A stretch of 64,000 nucleotides of DNA from Halorubrum sp. GN11_10-6_MGM (GTDB taxonomy: Archaea; Halobacteriota; Halobacteria; Halobacteriales; Haloferacaceae): NCBI RefSeq assembly GCF_005435165.1, contig NZ_SGUC01000003.1, positions 62,001-126,000 of the forward strand. Reading direction: 5' to 3'. The stretch's first letter is position 1; each line of letters opens with the position of its first letter. Shown piece after piece: positions 15,689 to 48,342 of this stretch. The notes beneath the pieces were generated by a model. That model was given only the letters and a program-made list of their open reading frames with translations, was not told the origin of the DNA and did no database searches. Made by a program: the position numbers and the translations under genes.

Positions 15689-15777
15689 ACGAGCGAGTCC
15701 GGAGTTGCGTTCCGCGTTCCGTACAGATTCTGGTGAAAAATATAAGTAAATATATCTAAAATAGATAGATCGAGCGA

Positions 15778-16272
15778 ATGGTCCCCGAAATGTCCACCGG
15801 ACGTCGTAACCTCCTCGTCAGCCTCGGTGGTGCCAGCCTCGCCGGCCTCGCTGGCTGTACCGACCTCGGCGGAGATTCCACCGAGGACGACAACGATCCC
15901 GCGGTCGTCGACACGATCGAGATCGCGAACGGTCAGGACGTTCCGCGAACGTTCGACGTCGTTCTGCGGTCCGCCGAGCGCGTACTCTACTGGGACTCCT
16001 TCGAGCTTGATGCGAGTGAAGGCACTGAGGCCGACGTGGATCTCGTCGACGGTCCATTCGGGAACGGTGACGAACCGTTGTGGCTGGACGTGAAAGCGGG
16101 GTATCCCGATGACGGTCCCGACTCGGCCGAAGGCGAGACCGTCGTCACCCAGCCTCTCGGTGAGGAGTACGGCGGCTGTATCTATGTGGTGGTCTTCGCA
16201 CCAATTGCTGGTGGGGTCTTGTTCCGCGTTGACCCTGCTGACGAGATCGTATCCAGAGACACTCGCTGTTGA
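15778..16272 (+). CDS. Tat-type lipoprotein
   Basis: The 164-aa protein begins with a twin-arginine signal (TGRRNLLVSLGGASLAGLAGC) ending in a lipobox LAGC. It would be exported folded and lipid-anchored, like many haloarchaeal secreted proteins. The mature part is acidic with no domain I recognise; a Cys pair (GGCIYVV and the final DTRC) could form a disulfide. The start could also be the ATG at 15790. Upstream sequence 15721-15777 is strikingly AT-rich, with a TATA box in AAATATATCTAAAATAG. The gene uses more A/T-ending codons than its neighbours, hinting at transfer next to tRNA-Ser. Confidence 0.8.
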   Translation: MVPEMSTGRRNLLVSLGGASLAGLAGCTDLGGDSTEDDNDPAVVDTIEIANGQDVPRTFDVVLRSAERVLYWDSFELDASEGTEADVDLVDGPFGNGDEPLWLDVKAGYPDDGPDSAEGETVVTQPLGEEYGGCIYVVVFAPIAGGVLFRVDPADEIVSRDTRC

Positions 16273-16330: not shown

Positions 16331-16610
16331 GGTGCCTCCGAAGCCCCAGCCGTGAGGACGACGCACGCTCGCTGTGCTCCTCGCTCAGTCGCTCCGCTCC
16401 TTCGCTGCGGTGCTTACGTCGCCTGCGTCGTCCTCACGACTGCCCCTTCGAGTCCCGCCCCGCACCGCGACCGCACAGTACCTCACGCCTCCCCAGCCTC
16501 GCGGCTCGCGCTCGTCGAGCGCGAGCCGCGTCCCTCGCGCGTGCTCCTCGCGGCCGCCTTCGGCGGCGCGCTCGCAGGCACGCGCCGACCGCACATTCAT
16601 TTATAAGTAA
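16331..16610 (-). repeat. Intergenic repeat copy A, putative structured RNA
   Basis: This is one of four related elements (others near 28533, 30592 and 48108). Read on the minus strand it has a TATA box (16600-16607) and, about 20 nt later, the helix GCGCGTGC/GCACGCGC enclosing a GCGCGCCGC/GGCGGCCGC hairpin. A perfect hairpin with arms of about 14 bp follows (CGCGGCTCGCGCTC with its complement). The invariant GAGGCTGGGGAGG and GGGACTCGAAGGGGCAG come next. A closing pair (GTCGTGAGGACGACGC with GCGTCGTCCTCACGGC) lies ahead of GGCTGGGGCTTCGG. No long open frame is conserved. It lies antisense to both flanking genes. Confidence 0.75.
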
Positions 16611-16998: not shown

Positions 16999-19596
16999 AT
17001 GAGTCGCGGCCCCGAACTGATAATCACGGAGAAAGACAACGCGGCGCGGCGCATCGCCGACATCCTGAGCGGCGAGTCCGCGACCGCGGAGCGGATGAAC
17101 GACGTCAACGTCTACGAGTGGGGCGGCAAGCGGTGTATCGGGCTCTCCGGTCACGTCGTCGGCGTCGACTTCCCGGCCGAGTACAACGACTGGCGAGACG
17201 TCGAGCCGGTCGAGCTGATCGACGCGCCCGTCACCAAGACCCCGACGCAGGAGGGGATCGTCGCCGCGCTGCGCCGGCTCGCCCGCAACGCCTCCCGCGT
17301 CGTCATCGCGACGGACTACGACCGCGAGGGCGAGCTCATCGGTAAGGAGGCGTACGAGCTGGTCCGCGAGGTGAACGAGGACGTCCCCGTCGACCGCGTG
17401 CGCTTCTCGTCGATCACCGAAAACGAGGTGCAGGAGGCGTTCGCGAACCCAGACGACCTCAACTTCGAGCTCGCGGCCGCCGGCGAGGCCCGCCAGACCA
17501 TCGACCTTACGTGGGGCGCCGCGCTCACGCGGTTCCTCTCGCTGTCCGCCCGCCAGCTCGGCGACGATTTTATCTCCGTCGGCCGGGTTCAGGGGCCCAC
17601 GCTCAAGCTCATCGTCGACCGCGAGCGCGAGATCCAGGCGTTCGACCCCGAGTCCTACTGGGAGCTGTCGGGCGAGCTGGCGAAGGCCGGCGGCGACCCG
17701 TTCGAGGCGCGCTACTTCTACCTGAACGACGAGGGTAACGAGGCCGAGCGCGTCTGGGACGGCGACGTCGCCGAGACGCTCACCGAGGCGCTTGACGCGG
17801 CCGACGGCGCCACGGTCGACGACGTCACGCGCCGGACGCAGACCGACGACCCGCCGACGCCGTTCAACACCACCGCGTTCATCCGCGCGGCGAGCTCGCT
17901 CGGCCACTCCGCGCAGCGCGCCATGTCGCTCGCGGAGGACCTGTACACCGCCGGCTACGTCACCTACCCCCGGACCGACAACACGGTGTACCCGGACGAC
18001 TTAGAGCCCGAGGAGCTGATCGAGGAGCTCTCGGCGGCCTCGACGTTCGGGAAAGACGCCGCGAGCCTACTCGAGGGCGACGCGGAGATCGATCCGACGG
18101 AGGGCGACGAGGAGACGACCGACCACCCGCCGATCCACCCGACCGGGGAGCTCCCTTCGGCCTCGGACCTCTCCGACGACGAGTGGGAGGTGTACGAGCT
18201 GATCGTCCGCCGGTTCCTCGCCACCTGCGCCGACCCCGCGACGTGGGAGCGGCTCCGCGTCGTCGCGCTCGCGAACGGCGAGGCGACCCCGATCGCCGAG
18301 AGGGCGGACGGGCTCGCCGCGCTCCGCGACCCGGACGCGGCCGACGGCCCGGCCGATCTCGTCGCCGACGGCGGCCTCCGGCTGAAGGCCAACGGGAAGC
18401 GGCTGCTGGAGGCCGGCTACCACGACGTCTACCCGTACCGCTCCAGCGACGAGCGGATCGTCCCGGACGTCGAGGTCGGCGAGACCCTGTCGCTGTCGGA
18501 CCGCGCCACAGAGGCGAAGGAGACGCAACCTCCCCGCCGCTACGGGCAGTCCCGTCTCATCGAGGAGATGGAGAAGCGGCAGCTCGGGACGAAGGCGACC
18601 CGCCACCGGACCATCGAGAAGCTGTACGACCGCAACTACGTCGAGAGCGACCCGCCGCGGCCGACGCGACTCGCCGAGGCGGTCGTCGAGGCCGCCGAGG
18701 AGTTTGCCGACCGGATCGTGAGCGAGGAGATGACCGCCCAGCTCGAACAGGACATGGCGGCTATCGCGGCCGGCGAGAAGGAGTACGACGAGGTGACGGC
18801 GGCGTCCCGAGAGCTCCTCTCCCGCGTGTTCGACGACCTCACCGAGTCGCGCGAGGCGGTCGGCGACCACCTCCAGACGTCGCTGAAAGCGGACAAGACG
18901 CTCGGTCCCTGCCCCGAGTGCGGCTCGGACCTCCTCGTCCGGAAGTCCCGGCAGGGGTCGTACTTCGTCGGCTGCGACGGCTACCCCGACTGCGAGTACA
19001 CGCTGCCGCTCCCCTCGACCGGGAAGCCGCTCATCCTCGACGAGACCTGCGAGGACCACGACCTCCGGCACGTGAAGATGCTCGCCGGTCGGAAGACGTT
19101 CGTCCACGGCTGTCCGCAGTGTAAGGCCGACGAGGCCGACGAGCAGGAGGACGAGGTGATCGGCGTCTGTCCCGACTGCGGGGAGGAACACGGGGGCGAA
19201 CTCGCTATCAAGCGGCTCCGCTCCGGCTCCCGGCTCGTCGGCTGTACGCGCTACCCCGACTGCGACTACTCGCTGCCGCTCCCCCGCCGCGGCGAGATCG
19301 AGGTCACGACGGAGACCTGCGAGGAACACGAGCTCCCGCACCTTCGAGTCCACTCCGGCGACGAACCGTGGGAACTCGGCTGTCCGATCTGTAACTACCG
19401 CGAGTTCACGGCCCGCCAGGAGGGGTCGGAGCTTCAGGCCGTCGAGGGGATCGGCGAGAAGACCGCCGCGAAGCTGAAGGACGCCGGCGTCGTCGGCGTC
19501 GACGAGCTCAAGTCCGTCGACCCGGACGAGTTGGCGGCGGACGTCGAGGGCGTGGGGGCGGACACCGTCCGCGACTGGCAGGCGAAGGCGGACTGA
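16999..19596 (+). CDS. topA: DNA topoisomerase I (type IA)
   Basis: This 865-aa type IA topoisomerase relaxes negative supercoils by single-strand passage. The Toprim domain carries TDYDREGE (105-112), and the catalytic tyrosine is Tyr323 in GYVTYPRTDNTVYP. C-terminal Cys4 zinc modules are visible (CPECGSDLL... CDGYPDCEY; CPDCGEEHG... CTRYPDCDY), with a further CxxC pair in ELGCPICNYREF. The last 50 residues (AVEGIGEKTAAKLKDAGV) form helix-hairpin-helix repeats. A TATA-like AAAGCTTTAGA is about 27 nt before the ATG. Confidence 0.96.
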   Translation: MSRGPELIITEKDNAARRIADILSGESATAERMNDVNVYEWGGKRCIGLSGHVVGVDFPAEYNDWRDVEPVELIDAPVTKTPTQEGIVAALRRLARNASRVVIATDYDREGELIGKEAYELVREVNEDVPVDRVRFSSITENEVQEAFANPDDLNFELAAAGEARQTIDLTWGAALTRFLSLSARQLGDDFISVGRVQGPTLKLIVDREREIQAFDPESYWELSGELAKAGGDPFEARYFYLNDEGNEAERVWDGDVAETLTEALDAADGATVDDVTRRTQTDDPPTPFNTTAFIRAASSLGHSAQRAMSLAEDLYTAGYVTYPRTDNTVYPDDLEPEELIEELSAASTFGKDAASLLEGDAEIDPTEGDEETTDHPPIHPTGELPSASDLSDDEWEVYELIVRRFLATCADPATWERLRVVALANGEATPIAERADGLAALRDPDAADGPADLVADGGLRLKANGKRLLEAGYHDVYPYRSSDERIVPDVEVGETLSLSDRATEAKETQPPRRYGQSRLIEEMEKRQLGTKATRHRTIEKLYDRNYVESDPPRPTRLAEAVVEAAEEFADRIVSEEMTAQLEQDMAAIAAGEKEYDEVTAASRELLSRVFDDLTESREAVGDHLQTSLKADKTLGPCPECGSDLLVRKSRQGSYFVGCDGYPDCEYTLPLPSTGKPLILDETCEDHDLRHVKMLAGRKTFVHGCPQCKADEADEQEDEVIGVCPDCGEEHGGELAIKRLRSGSRLVGCTRYPDCDYSLPLPRRGEIEVTTETCEEHELPHLRVHSGDEPWELGCPICNYREFTARQEGSELQAVEGIGEKTAAKLKDAGVVGVDELKSVDPDELAADVEGVGADTVRDWQAKAD

Positions 19597-27649: not shown

Positions 27650-28456
27650 ATGAACGCCGTCACGCTGGGCCCCGCCGGCACGTACTCGCACCGCGCCGCG
27701 CGCTCCGTCGCCGCCGAGGTGTCGTTCCGGGAGTCGGTCACCGCGATCGTCGACGCCGTCGCGAGCGGCGAGTTCGAGCGCGGCGTCGTCCCCATCGAGA
27801 ACAGCATCGAGGGCTCCGTCACGGAGAGCCTCGACGCGCTCGCCGACTACGACGTCTCCGTCACCCGCGAGGTCGTCACGCCGATCCGCCACGCCCTCCT
27901 CGCGCAGGACGACGAGTTCGAGGTCGTCGCGAGCCACTCGCAGGCGCTCGCGCAGTGTCGCAACTGGCTCGAAGCCAACTACCCGGACGCCGGGCTCGAA
28001 GCGGTCGCCTCCACCGCCCGCGGGGTCGAGCGCGCCCGCGAGGACGCCCGCGTCGCCGGGATCGGGCACCCTGACAACGCCGGCGACGACCTCTCGATAC
28101 TCGCGGCGGACATCCAGGACCGCACCTCCAACGCGACCCGCTTCCTCGTCGTCGCGCCCGAGTCCGCGCGCTCTGACGCCGGCGGAAAGACCACGCTGAT
28201 CGTCTACCCGAACGCGAACTACCCCGGCCTGCTGCTCGAACTCCTCGAAGCCTTCGCCGACCGCAACCTCAACCTCTCGCGGATCGAGTCGCGCCCGAGC
28301 GGCGAACGCCTCGGCGACTATCTGTTCCACTTCGACGTGGACGCCGGCCTCTACGAGGACCACATGGCGAAGGCGGTCGAGGACATCGAGGCCATCGCGG
28401 ACAACGGCTGGGTGAAGGTGCTCGGCTCGTACGATACCGAGCACGTATTGGACTGA
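27650..28456 (+). CDS. pheA: Prephenate dehydratase
   Basis: This enzyme converts prephenate to phenylpyruvate in phenylalanine synthesis. The catalytic periplasmic-binding-like domain starts with VTLGPAGTYSHRAA, continues through GVVPIENSIEGSV and ends with the TRF motif in SNATRFLVVAPE. The C-terminal ACT domain (KTTLIVYPNANYPGLLLELLEAFADRNLNLSRIESRPSGERLGDYLFHFD) carries the ESRP phenylalanine-binding motif, so feedback inhibition is expected. At 268 aa it is the monofunctional form. A T-rich box about 27 nt before the ATG suggests a leaderless message. Confidence 0.96.
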   Translation: MNAVTLGPAGTYSHRAARSVAAEVSFRESVTAIVDAVASGEFERGVVPIENSIEGSVTESLDALADYDVSVTREVVTPIRHALLAQDDEFEVVASHSQALAQCRNWLEANYPDAGLEAVASTARGVERAREDARVAGIGHPDNAGDDLSILAADIQDRTSNATRFLVVAPESARSDAGGKTTLIVYPNANYPGLLLELLEAFADRNLNLSRIESRPSGERLGDYLFHFDVDAGLYEDHMAKAVEDIEAIADNGWVKVLGSYDTEHVLD

Positions 28457-28532: not shown

Positions 28533-28822
28533 TTTATAAATGGACGCGGCGGTGCGGTGGCGCGCGCCTCCGAGCGGCCGCCTCCAGCGGCCGTGAGGAG
28601 CGCGTGCGAGGGAGTCAGCCGGCCGGAGCGAAGCGGAGGCCGGCTGACGAGGCTGGGGAGGTGTGAGGTGCTGTGCGGAGCGGTGCGGGGCGGGACTCAA
28701 AGGGGCAGCCGCGATCGGCGAACCCCAGCGACGCAAGCACCGGAGGGAGCGAGCAGCGCGAGCGACTGAGGAGCGCAGCGAGCTGTGGGAGCCGATCGCG
28801 GCTGGGGCTTTGGCGGTGTTCC
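28533..28822 (+). repeat. Intergenic repeat copy B, putative structured RNA
   Basis: A TATA box (TTTATAAAT, 28533-28541) is followed after about 18 nt by the conserved GGCGCGCGCC (28559-28568). This pairs with GCGCGTGC around a GCGGCCGC hairpin. A hairpin follows with arms GTCAGCCGGCC and GGCCGGCTGAC, then the invariant GAGGCTGGGGAGG and GGGACTCAAAGGGGCAG. A long helix CCGCGATCGGC/GCCGATCGCGG closes just before GGCTGGGGCTTTGGCGGTG. It lies between the convergent pheA and cysS genes, within the 463-bp gap 28457-28919. The remaining 97 bp up to the cysS stop hold no other feature I can support. Confidence 0.8.
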
Positions 28823-28919
28823 TTGTCGATCCGCTGGCAACTGTTTATTAGTAACTGCTCGGAGGCTCAGTGATTCTCGCCGTTCCAACGGCTACTTCCG
28901 TGAACGTGGGAACTTCGCT

Positions 28920-30425
28920 TTATTCGAACCGGTACGTCGCGCCGTCCGGGCCGTCTTCGATCTCGACGCCGACCTCACGGAGCGCGTCCCGGAGCTCGTC
29001 GGCGCGCTCGTAGTTGCCGGCCTCCCGTTCGGCCTCGCGCACGTCCAACACGAGCTCGACCAGCTCGCCCGCCAGCTCCACGTCGCCGTCGCTCGCCGTC
29101 TCGAACTGGAGGCCGAGCACGTCGCCGCCGAGGTCGTCGAACGCCTCGACCGCCTCGCGGAGCCCGCGGTAGTCGTAGGCGGCCTCGGCGTCACCGGTCG
29201 CGCCCGCGTCCTCGACCGCGTCGACGTGGCGGTTCACCGCGTCGGTGAGGTCCAAGAGCGCCGCGGTCGCCTCCCGGAGGTTCAGATCGTCGTTCATCGC
29301 GGCCGCGAACTCGTCGCGCGCGGTCTCGACCGCGTCGCGGAGCTCGTCGTCCTCGGATTTGGCGCGGGCCGCGGTCGAGTCCAGCGCCTCGACGGTGCGG
29401 TCGTAGGTCCGCGAGAGGCGCTCCCAGCGCTCCTCGGCCTCCGCCATCGTCTCCTCGGTGAGCGCCTGCTCGGAGCGGTAGGCGGCGCCGGCGTAGAAGG
29501 TGCGGATCACGTTGACGCCGAGTTCCTCCAAGGCGTCGGGCACGGTCCAGAAGTTGCCGATGGAGGAGGACATCTTCTCGCCGTCCATCGCCAGTAAACC
29601 GACGTGGAGCCAGTGGCGCGCGAACGTCTCGCCGGTGGCCGCCTCCGACTGGGCGATCTCGTTTTCGTGGTGCGGGAAGACAAGATCGCGCCCGCCCATG
29701 TGGACGTCGAGCGTGTCGCCGAGGTGCGTCGTCGACATCGCCGAGCACTCCACGTGCCACCCCGGGCGGCCCTCGCTCCACGGCGAGTCCCACGTCTCGC
29801 CCGCGGGCGTCTCCGCGCCGTGGTCGTGTTTCGCGTGCTCGCGCGCCGCGGTCTCGCTCACGCCGTCGGCCTTCCACAGCGCGAAGTCAGCCGGGTTGCG
29901 CTTCTCCGAGCGCTCGTCGGGTTCGCCCTGCGCTTCGAGCGCGTCGACGTCCTGGTTCGAGAGCTTCCCGTACTCCTCGAACGCGGTCACGTCGAAGTAG
30001 ACGGAGCCGTTCGCCTCGTAGGCGTACCCCTTCTCGACCAGCGTCTCGACGAGGTCGACGATCTCCGGGACGTGTTCCGTGACGCGGGGGTACACCTCGG
30101 CGCGCAAAAGGTTCAGCCCCCGCATCGCGTCGAAGGTGGTCACGGTGAACGTCTCGGCCACGTCGCGCTCCGCGGCCCACTCGTCGCGCTCGCCGACGCG
30201 GGCGGTGATCTTCTCGTTGACGTCGGTGACGTTCTCGACGTGGCGCACGTCGTACCCCTCGTGTTCGAGCCACCGGTGGAGCACGTCGGCGTGGAACCAC
30301 AGCCGGGCGTGGCCGAGGTGCGGGTCGTCCGACACCGTCAGGCCGCAGACGTACAGCGTGACGTCGCCGTCGGCCGTGAACTCGACGCGCTCGTCTTCGA
30401 GGGTGTCGGTAACGACGAGACTCAT
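28920..30425 (-). CDS. cysS: Cysteine--tRNA ligase
   Basis: This class I aminoacyl-tRNA synthetase of 501 aa charges tRNA-Cys. The zinc-site cysteine and HIGH motif are in VCGLTVSDDPHLGHARLWF, where the usual CGPTVYD is CGLTVSD. ECSAMSTTHLGDTLDVHMGG and FPHHENEIAQSEA carry further zinc ligands, and KMSKS appears as EKMSSSIGN. The C-terminal DALR-like region shows NDDLNLREATAALLDL. The promoter TATA-like GATTTAAAACG (about 30449-30459) is about 27 nt before the ATG. Confidence 0.97.
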   Translation of the reverse strand: MSLVVTDTLEDERVEFTADGDVTLYVCGLTVSDDPHLGHARLWFHADVLHRWLEHEGYDVRHVENVTDVNEKITARVGERDEWAAERDVAETFTVTTFDAMRGLNLLRAEVYPRVTEHVPEIVDLVETLVEKGYAYEANGSVYFDVTAFEEYGKLSNQDVDALEAQGEPDERSEKRNPADFALWKADGVSETAAREHAKHDHGAETPAGETWDSPWSEGRPGWHVECSAMSTTHLGDTLDVHMGGRDLVFPHHENEIAQSEAATGETFARHWLHVGLLAMDGEKMSSSIGNFWTVPDALEELGVNVIRTFYAGAAYRSEQALTEETMAEAEERWERLSRTYDRTVEALDSTAARAKSEDDELRDAVETARDEFAAAMNDDLNLREATAALLDLTDAVNRHVDAVEDAGATGDAEAAYDYRGLREAVEAFDDLGGDVLGLQFETASDGDVELAGELVELVLDVREAEREAGNYERADELRDALREVGVEIEDGPDGATYRFE

Positions 30426-30591: not shown

Positions 30592-30822
30592 ACCACCGCC
30601 AAAGCCCCGGCCGCGAGGACACCGGACGCTCGTTGTGTTCCTCACTCGGTCGCTCCGCTCCCTCGTTACGGTGCTCACGTCGCCTCCGGTGTCCTCGCGG
30701 CCGCCCCTTTGAGTCCCACCCCGCACAGCACCGCAGCCTCACACCTCCCCAGCCTCGCGCGGTGCTCCTCGGCCGCAAAGCGGCCTCGCCGGCACGCGCC
30801 ACCGCAGTTTTGTTTATAAATA
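30592..30822 (-). repeat. Intergenic repeat copy C, putative structured RNA
   Basis: On the minus strand the element has TTTATAAAC (TATA, about 30813-30822), then GGCGCGTGCC (30791-30800 complement) around a short GGCCGC/GCGGCC hairpin. The middle hairpin of copies A, B and D is absent, so GAGGCTGGGGAGG follows at once. GGGACTCAAAGGGGC comes next. A helix of about 17 bp (GGCCGCGAGGACACCGG with its complement) precedes GGCCGGGGCTTTGGCGGTG. It would be transcribed in the same direction as ilvA and cysS, between them. Confidence 0.75.
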
Positions 30823-30832
30823 AACGACTCCC

Positions 30833-32095
30833 TCAGGACTCCCGCGTCGTCCACTCAACCGCGTAGCCCGCCTCGCGCACCGCCGTCAGGACGCGGTCGA
30901 CGTGCGCCGGACCGTTCGTCTCCACCTCGAACACGAGGTCGGCGTCGCCCACGGGCAGATCGGGGTGACTGCGCTCGTGGCGCACCGTCCGGATGTTCGC
31001 GCGCTCCCCCCCGATCAGGGTCGCGATCTCGCCCATCGTGCCGGGCGTGTCGTCGATGCGGACGGAGAGCTCGATCAGCTGGTCGCGGTCGACCAGCGCG
31101 TGCGTCACCACCTCCTTCAGCGTCGTCACGTCGATGTTGCCTCCGCACAGCAGCGGCACGACCGTCTCGCCGCTCAAGTCGAGCTCCTCGACCGCGTCGT
31201 CGTTCAACAGGGCGGCCGCGGCGGTCGCGCCCGCGCCCTCGACCATCTGTTTCGCGCGCTCTAAGAGTAGCAGGATCGCGCTCGCCACGTCGTCGTCGCT
31301 CACGACGACGGTCTCGTCGAGGTGCGCGTCGAGCAGCTCGAAGGTGAGCTCGCTCAGCCCGCCGGTCGCGATCCCGTCCGCGATGGTGTCGGGCTCGTCC
31401 CGCCTCACGAGCTCGCCGGCCGCGAGACTCTCCGCGAGCGTCGAGGCGCCCTCCGTCTGGACCCCGACCACGCGCGTCTCCGGCGACCGCGCCTTCACCG
31501 CGGTCGCGACCCCGCCCGCGAGCCCGCCGCCGCCCACCGGGACGAGGACGGTGTCGACGTCCGGCACCTGGTCGAGCACCTCCAGTCCGAGCGTCCCCTG
31601 CCCGGCGACCACGTCCCGGTCGTCGAACGCGTGGACGAACCGCGTCCCGGGGTCGTCGGTGAGCGTCTGCGCGTGCGCCATCGCCTCGGGGAACGCGCTC
31701 CCGCGGAGGACGACCTCGGCGCCGTACGCGCGGGTGGCCTCGATCTTCGCCGCGGGCGCCGACTCCGGCATCACGATCGTCGCGTCGATGCCGGCGTCCG
31801 ACGCCGCCAGCGCCACCCCCTGCGCGTGGTTGCCCGCGCTCGCGGCCACGACGCGTTCGATCGCGGACTCGTCGGCATCCCGATCTGACTCGCCGATCGC
31901 CAGCGAGATCGCGTTGTACGCGCCGCGCGTCTTGAACGAGCCGGTGCGCTGGAGGTGTTCCATCTTGAGGCGCACGTCGGCGCCGCACCGCTCGCTCAGC
32001 GACCGGCTCCGCTCGACCGGCGTGCGCTGGACGATGTCGGTGCCCGTGAGGCGCCCGGCGGCGGCCTCGACGTCGTCGATCGTAACGGAGGACAT
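30833..32095 (-). CDS. ilvA: Threonine ammonia-lyase
   Basis: This PLP enzyme deaminates threonine to 2-oxobutanoate, the first committed step of isoleucine synthesis. PLP-binding Lys55 is in RTGSFKTRGAYNA, with SAGNHAQGVALAAS and the glycine loop VPVGGGGLAGG following. After residue 335 an ACT domain (LIELSVRIDDTPGTMGEIATLIGG) is present. The 420-aa length is that of the short or catabolic-type enzyme with a single ACT domain. A T-rich TATA-like TCCTTTTCACG lies about 27 nt upstream. Confidence 0.94.
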   Translation of the reverse strand: MSSVTIDDVEAAAGRLTGTDIVQRTPVERSRSLSERCGADVRLKMEHLQRTGSFKTRGAYNAISLAIGESDRDADESAIERVVAASAGNHAQGVALAASDAGIDATIVMPESAPAAKIEATRAYGAEVVLRGSAFPEAMAHAQTLTDDPGTRFVHAFDDRDVVAGQGTLGLEVLDQVPDVDTVLVPVGGGGLAGGVATAVKARSPETRVVGVQTEGASTLAESLAAGELVRRDEPDTIADGIATGGLSELTFELLDAHLDETVVVSDDDVASAILLLLERAKQMVEGAGATAAAALLNDDAVEELDLSGETVVPLLCGGNIDVTTLKEVVTHALVDRDQLIELSVRIDDTPGTMGEIATLIGGERANIRTVRHERSHPDLPVGDADLVFEVETNGPAHVDRVLTAVREAGYAVEWTTRES

Positions 32096-48107: not shown

Positions 48108-48342
48108 ATTTAAAAAGCGCGTCCGCCGCGGTGGCGCGTGCCTGCGAGCGGCCGCCACCGGCGGCCGCGAGTCAGCACGCGCGAGGGAGTCGGCCGACCG
48201 GAGGGAGGCCGACGAGGCTGGGGAGGCGTGAGGTGCCGTGCGGTCGCGGTCGGGTGGGACTCAAAGGGGCAGTCACCGGCGGCGAAGCCGCCGGTTGCCC
48301 GTGACGCGTAGCGCCCTCGCGGCTGGGGTTTTGGCGGTGTTC
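48108..48342 (+). repeat. Intergenic repeat copy D, putative structured RNA (compact form)
   Basis: A TATA-like GATTTAAAAAG (48107-48117) precedes GGCGCGTGCC (48133-48142), which pairs with GCACGCGC around a GGCCGCcaccGGCGGCC hairpin. The next hairpin has arms GTCGGCC and GGCCGAC, followed by GAGGCTGGGGAGG and GGGACTCAAAGGGGCAG. A self-contained hairpin ACCGGCGGCGAAGCCGCCGGT sits before the final GGCTGGGGTTTTGGCGGTG. It is the shortest copy and best defines the shared core. It lies between the minus-strand phosphodiesterase and rfcS genes and is antisense to both. Confidence 0.8.

Follow-up and report, generated by a model that had tools for sequence, protein, structure and literature searches.

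The four intergenic elements found in this 64,000-nucleotide stretch of Halorubrum DNA (the window) are members of an ancient family of folded, ~250-base elements that occupies about a hundred fixed places in Halorubrum. The fold persists through changes in its sequence, implying a function that nobody has described. Structure that is kept at fixed loci amid sequence turnover is a mark of function, not of junk, and raises a testable question: what is the role of a hundred or so near-equivalent structured loci in an archaeon?

Copies in the window and spread of the family

The structure model was derived by folding 40 copies and from RNAalifold. In the 5' part, helix P1 (GCGCGYGC/GCRCGCGC) surrounds a 3-bp stem, a GA/GA loop and hairpin P2, and is followed by hairpin P3. 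The middle part consists of the unpaired motif GAGGCTGGGGAGGYGTGAGG and a TGCGG-rich spacer. The 3' part is a rod made of P4 (CAAAG/CTTTG), a GGG/GGG loop, P5 and P6, the last with short stems and tandem GA between them. Unpaired G-rich motifs join the helices and are invariant.

The positions and order of parts that a first-pass annotation had assigned to elements A, B, C and D were verified in the sequence. The order is shared overall, with P3 missing from C and the P6 region replaced in D, where a two-hairpin insert takes its place and the outer P5 pairs are broken. B occupies the convergent gap between pheA (27650-28456, plus strand) and cysS (28920-30425, minus strand). A sits between an unknown gene (15769-16272, plus strand) and topA (16999-19596, plus strand), and C between cysS and a threonine dehydratase-like gene (30833-32095, minus strand). 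Scores below are for R1, a covariance model that spans the 3' domain beginning at GAGGCTGGGGAGG and was built partly from the window copies.

28559..28813, plus strand: element B, full copy, from the P1 arm to the end of CTGGGGCTTTGG, read from the sequence; R1 match 28649-28813, 148.4 bits
28533..28539, plus strand: TTTATAA box of B, 19 nt before GGCGCG, read from the sequence
28560..28607, plus strand: B, P1 (GCGCGCGC/GCGCGTGC) around the 3-bp stem, GA/GA loop and hairpin P2
28614..28648, plus strand: B, hairpin P3
28649..28668, plus strand: B, conserved unpaired G-rich motif GAGGCTGGGGAGGTGTGAGG
28692..28706, plus strand: B, GGGACTCAAAGGGGC, the P4 5' arm (CAAAG) and one side of the GGG/GGG loop
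28706..28803, plus strand: B, long helix P5 and inner rod P6 (short stems, tandem GA between)
28802..28813, plus strand: B, CTGGGGCTTTGG, the 3' side of the GGG/GGG loop, the P4 3' arm and the start of the tail region
16338..16586, minus strand: element A, full copy; R1 match 16338-16500, 167.6 bits
30599..30800, minus strand: element C, without P3; R1 match 30599-30756, 154.5 bits
30814..30820, minus strand: TTTATAA box of C, 13 nt before GGCGCG, read from the sequence
48133..48334, plus strand: element D, degenerate, with a two-hairpin insert for P5/P6; R1 match 48214-48334, 66.6 bits

These four had been described as the whole family; they are a sample of ~125 copies per genome. A blastn search of its own genome with copy B gave 40 scored places among 218 candidates, and the 20-base motif GAGGCTGGGGAGGNGTGAGG, allowing ≤ 3 mismatches, is found at 125 places in the 3.3-Mb genome, as against 2 for the reversed motif. 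At about 250 bases each, roughly 125 copies make up ~ 1% of the Halorubrum genome. With ≤ 2 mismatches, the 20-mer is present in 13-195 copies in 47 of 47 sampled genomes of the genus (own genome included; controls 0 or 1), in 121 copies in another genus of the same family, and in up to 135 copies in single genomes elsewhere. Named matches are from Halorubrum, Haloparvum, Halorussus, Halobellus and Halosimplex.

A covariance-model search across haloarchaeal genomes with R1, in which at most 20 candidates were scored per genome and model E-values are rough, gave matches at E ≤ 0.001 in 108 of 145 Halobacteria genomes, which represent 46 of 58 genera. Those distant copies that were read share a core of GTGGGACTGAAAGGGGC, a helix and GGGGCTTTC. 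Among Halobacteria, 40 of 80 genomes contain this core pattern; outside the class, 3 of 313 genomes of the phylum do, each with a single match, one of which was read and lacks the fold. The family is Halobacteria-specific and class-wide, and recurs in most of the genera sampled. In other genera, the P4-P6 core is also seen as head-to-head inverted pairs ~ 30 nt apart (L278, L279, L269; G079:C2:1600867-1600932). Rfam release 15 contains no match at the gathering score or at E ≤ 1, and we found no paper in the open literature that describes the family or quotes its core sequence. These searches support the proposal that the family was earlier uncatalogued as a structurally covarying family.

A phage search returned no match, and viral contigs had 0 matches to the 20-mer and nine to the core, all of the latter in ordinary sequence without the fold. 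Plasmid matches are few, and partial or divergent only; in G027, every one of the matches listed (99 of 174) lies on the main chromosome. Matches in the own genome are split 57 and 62 between the strands, and this lack of imbalance speaks against lagging-strand or replication-strand DNA models.

Contigs of the own-genome assembly often start inside an element (C41:18, C116:24, C125:19, C146:19, C169:9, C179:19) or end inside one (C60:74223 of 74497, C120:42840 of 42893), and the repeat seems to fragment the genome assembly. Contig C146 opens with four 20-mer copies at 35-bp spacing, possibly an assembly artefact.

Covariation and the folded strand

Pairing rather than sequence is kept, as had been proposed from the four window copies. 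Across 75 distinct own-genome rows of the 3' domain, 97.7% of cells hold standard pairs, compared with 84.5% when partners are shuffled and 28-44% when they are slid by 1-3 columns; the percentage paired was reached by 0 of 500 shuffles, here as in the 5' domain. Double-sided changes in this domain number 299 (85 with shuffled partners), and 27 of 37 pairs covary, as do 14 of 21 in the 5' domain, counts in which the sequences are related and the events not independent. The 3'-domain alignment was fitted to the model; the 5'-domain alignment is from MAFFT, and on it 94.4% are paired versus 76.8% shuffled. The covariation is far beyond chance. The 3-bp stem inside P1 covaries (TCC/GGA, TGC/GCA, GAC/GTC, GGT/ACC, GAT/ATC), and across genera P4 occurs as five matched sets: CAAAG/CTTTG (127), CGAAG/CTTCG (58), GAAAG/CTTTC (14) and the rarer GGAAG/CTTCC (5) and GCAAG/CTTGC (1). 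For structural studies, the copies offer naturally compensated variants that are ready to use.

In 163 of 179 copies, the GGG/GGG loop reads exactly GGGGC/YGGGGC. It is non-complementary, except that its two sides have become complementary in one copy, L224. Hairpin P2 has a three-base loop in 144 of 178 copies, of the GNA type in 42, and a GNRA tetraloop in one. GNA triloops are very stable in DNA. Hairpins so rich in triloops and poor in GNRA are unusual for RNA and better known from DNA. A kink-turn reading of the GA loops was dropped, as inspection by eye showed the 3-nt bulge to be missing.

Wobble pairs indicate which strand folds. In unfitted, fixed-register P5 arms, G-U outnumbers A-C by 31 to 12 (p = 0.005), and on the fitted alignment by 52 to 14 (p = 3e-6; site-level Wilcoxon p = 0.027). 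The site-level G-U excess in A1+A2 is not significant, and folding-energy z-scores, with RNA or DNA parameters, do not separate the top from the bottom strand. Given that a cruciform would be symmetric, G-U counts so far above A-C mean that one strand folds. The plus strand carries the conserved fold, and its strand-specific wobble tolerance fits RNA or single-stranded DNA.

Fixed positions, age and mobility

In 64-kb stretches of five relatives that are syntenic with the window (topA 93% identical), A, C and D occur at the same place and in the same orientation in 5 of 5, and B in 3 of 5; no other full copies or new insertions were found in these stretches. Orthologs frequently have different hairpins, and their P5 differences are almost entirely two-sided. 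In A, for instance, G027 and G333 have AACCG/CGGTT where G152 has AGCCG/CGGCT. The one-sided P5 changes are mostly from inserted-hairpin copies whose arms were mis-registered.

Within the own genome, the best match of any of 58 copies is at most 85.5% identical, and the near-identical copies by which an active MITE is recognized are absent from this set. Since no two of the 58 are > 86% identical, the family is old and not hopping now. An active MITE was also rejected on the lack of insertion polymorphism in the five relatives' 64 kb. The similarities of P2, P3 and P5 are nearly uncorrelated among the 58 copies. The family is old, vertically inherited and mosaic, with no present expansion.

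Copies can be lost, as remnants at the position of C in L156 and L163 indicate, and some species have lost or truncated copies, so none of them is essential by itself. A clean empty site was found for neither B nor C; in species without B, the gap carries other DNA. End-to-end inverted similarity is weak (15.1 versus 12.7 for the null), as is the flank similarity sought as target duplication (p = 0.04). The best candidate for a younger insertion is copy L019, which is flanked by a 15-bp perfect direct repeat, GCTATTTATAAACGA.

Some elements contain inserted two-hairpin modules with perfect stems, such as ACCGGCGGC..GCCGCCGGT TGCCC GTGGCGC..GCGCCAC. These are found at 48271-48320 of the window, in A of G147 and G011, in C and D of G027, and in L157 and L164. 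Such modules may represent another small family of mobile repeats.

BOX-like repeats, RNA and the alternatives

We placed 127 copies relative to genes called with a codon-model gene caller written for this analysis. Gaps are convergent for 45, tandem for 65 and divergent for 17; 1 of 128 copies overlaps coding sequence. Of the copies placed, 81 lie downstream of a gene on the same strand, the median distance from its stop codon to P1 being 44 nt, and 46 have no such gene ahead. In tandem gaps, 36 are oriented with the genes and 29 against, and no orientation preference is clear beyond avoidance of promoter regions. The element extends 3' into a tail unit, usually of 57 bp, that is present 1-8 times. 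With this tandemly iterated sub-unit, the family is high-copy, intergenic and modular in the manner of a BOX-like repeat. Each tail unit has a TTTATAA box and CTGGGGCTTTGG (window 28814-28870; L150; L165; the G152 copy of D, L204-L205). Unit lengths of 57, 51, 69, 63, 66, 54 and 60 are nearly all multiples of 3, without a shared open frame; a coding tail was dropped when, by eye, no frame was open in both the 57- and 69-base variants.

In its working, the family appears most like the pneumococcal BOX elements. These are structured intergenic repeats, many per Streptococcus pneumoniae genome, that can be transcribed as 5' or 3' operon extensions, have a variable-number sub-unit and a predicted RNA fold, and proliferated in the past but are slow now (PMC3049150). 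Both are high-copy, structured, intergenic and modular, with a variable-copy sub-unit, old proliferation and slow mobility. However, no sequence relation is known, and the haloarchaeal stems differ between almost all copies with compensation, their positions are kept across species and the family is class-wide. The PATE, MITE and SMR repeats of Haloquadratum walsbyi are short, transposase-free and palindromic. They number from tens to hundreds, are mobile, vary between strains and are grouped by terminal repeats or IS605-like ends (PMC3119063). By these descriptions they are set apart from the present family, for which neither recent copies nor insertion polymorphism was seen. ERIC and REP/BIME elements are also conserved imperfect palindromes between genes, and the head-to-head core pairs recall BIMEs. 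By description they differ in being enterobacterial, with shorter or simpler folds and no GGG/GGG rod. Effects of ERIC at the mRNA level have been reported (cited in PMC3049150). The covarying consensus structure resembles that of a curated RNA family, although, as noted, Rfam has no match.

We favor, at about even confidence, an ancient multi-copy, BOX-like structured repeat whose folded strand, likeliest an RNA from neighbor read-through, is kept by selection. The family would have spread anciently in non-autonomous form, much like pneumococcal BOX or ERIC elements, and later been retained at fixed loci because the folded strand acts there. The acting form would most likely be RNA, made mainly by transcription through the gap from neighboring genes. 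The invariant G-rich single strands might serve as a protein-binding platform, or form a G-quadruplex in the potassium-rich cell, and so act on the processing, stability or ending of neighbor transcripts. RNA probably ranks ahead of DNA as the folded strand, judging from the strand-specific wobble, in-place selection at fixed loci and a multi-helix fold with invariant unpaired motifs. Also in favor of this explanation are the class-wide spread, the covariation and the 81 of 127 copies that lie shortly downstream of a stop codon on their own strand. The copies that do not follow a same-strand gene (46 of 127) and the near-balanced tandem orientations (36 and 29) count against this explanation, as do the triloops in 144 of 178 copies with a single GNRA loop, and L224, which shows inversion or palindrome correction at the DNA level. 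The loss or truncation of copies in some species and the lack of a significant site-level G-U excess in A1+A2 weigh on the same side. A more specific proposal is tentative: a class-wide RNA at about a hundred loci per genome, with different stems in each copy, could use a shared fold to present its invariant unpaired G-tracts as a platform, either bound by a protein or folded as a G-quadruplex, that acts on the transcripts of many housekeeping neighborhoods. If true, this would be a genome-wide post-transcriptional system not described before.

The foremost rival, which we consider rather unlikely, is a DNA-level one: an old selfish repeat that folds as single-stranded DNA, with stems kept by occasional mobility, recombination and palindrome repair. 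Variants are a non-autonomous element mobilized by a single-strand transposase, or a structural site of the chromosome. The GNA-type triloops and near absence of GNRA count for such a model, and it is also favored by hairpin modules that are unlinked within copies, a tail amplified in tandem, head-to-head core pairs in other genera, TTTATAA at both ends and the lack of orientation bias. It further gains from L224, where the P4-P6 segment (L224:541-705, minus strand) is inverted and its arms are now a perfect palindrome. However, palindrome repair would erase the GGG/GGG loop, so its retention in 163 of 179 copies, together with the persistence of the GA loops, means that such repair fails to explain the pairing. 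Nor can mobility maintain the fixed copies, given the maximum identity of 85.5% and no new insertions in the five relatives' 64 kb. The strand bias exists without replication-strand bias, and there is no viral carriage and few plasmid matches.

We consider it improbable that the copies are separate small RNA genes under promoters of their own, as the first-pass annotation held. Of 215 copies, 98 have a TATA-like box upstream, with a median gap of 14 nt to GGCGCG; this is an enrichment (about half of copies versus roughly 8% in a control window), and the boxes of A, B and C are kept in most orthologs. These points and the strong covariation favor small RNA genes, but the spacing from box to helix, which had been called constant, varies, and about half of all copies have no box. 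In the window, the box of cysS (TTTAAAA) ends 25 nt before the start codon. Taking this spacing, transcripts of the elements would start ~ 24 nt after the box, which puts the start past the first base of the P1 5' arm in 98% and past the entire arm in 64%, leaving a box-driven transcript unable to form P1. Boxes are no commoner where read-through from a same-strand gene upstream is impossible (16 of 41) than otherwise (51 of 103). The box of D, ~ 25 nt from the start of a metallophosphoesterase gene that diverges from it (48085, minus strand), most plausibly belongs to the promoter of that gene. The 3' tail has a similar TTTATAA box. Such boxes resemble a boundary motif more than a promoter that drives the folded RNA, and some role in other transcripts is possible. 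A promoter-led small RNA family was rejected, as the start before the first helix that it needs is lacking in 98% of boxed copies; of the earlier description, the structurally covarying, uncatalogued family stands and "promoter-led" falls.

Finally, although palindromic sequences of 66-80% G + C pair easily by chance, an artefact of composition or alignment is refuted by reversed-pattern controls (near 0 versus tens to hundreds of matches) and slid-partner controls, and opposed by the orthologous positions, leaving it a negligible prospect.
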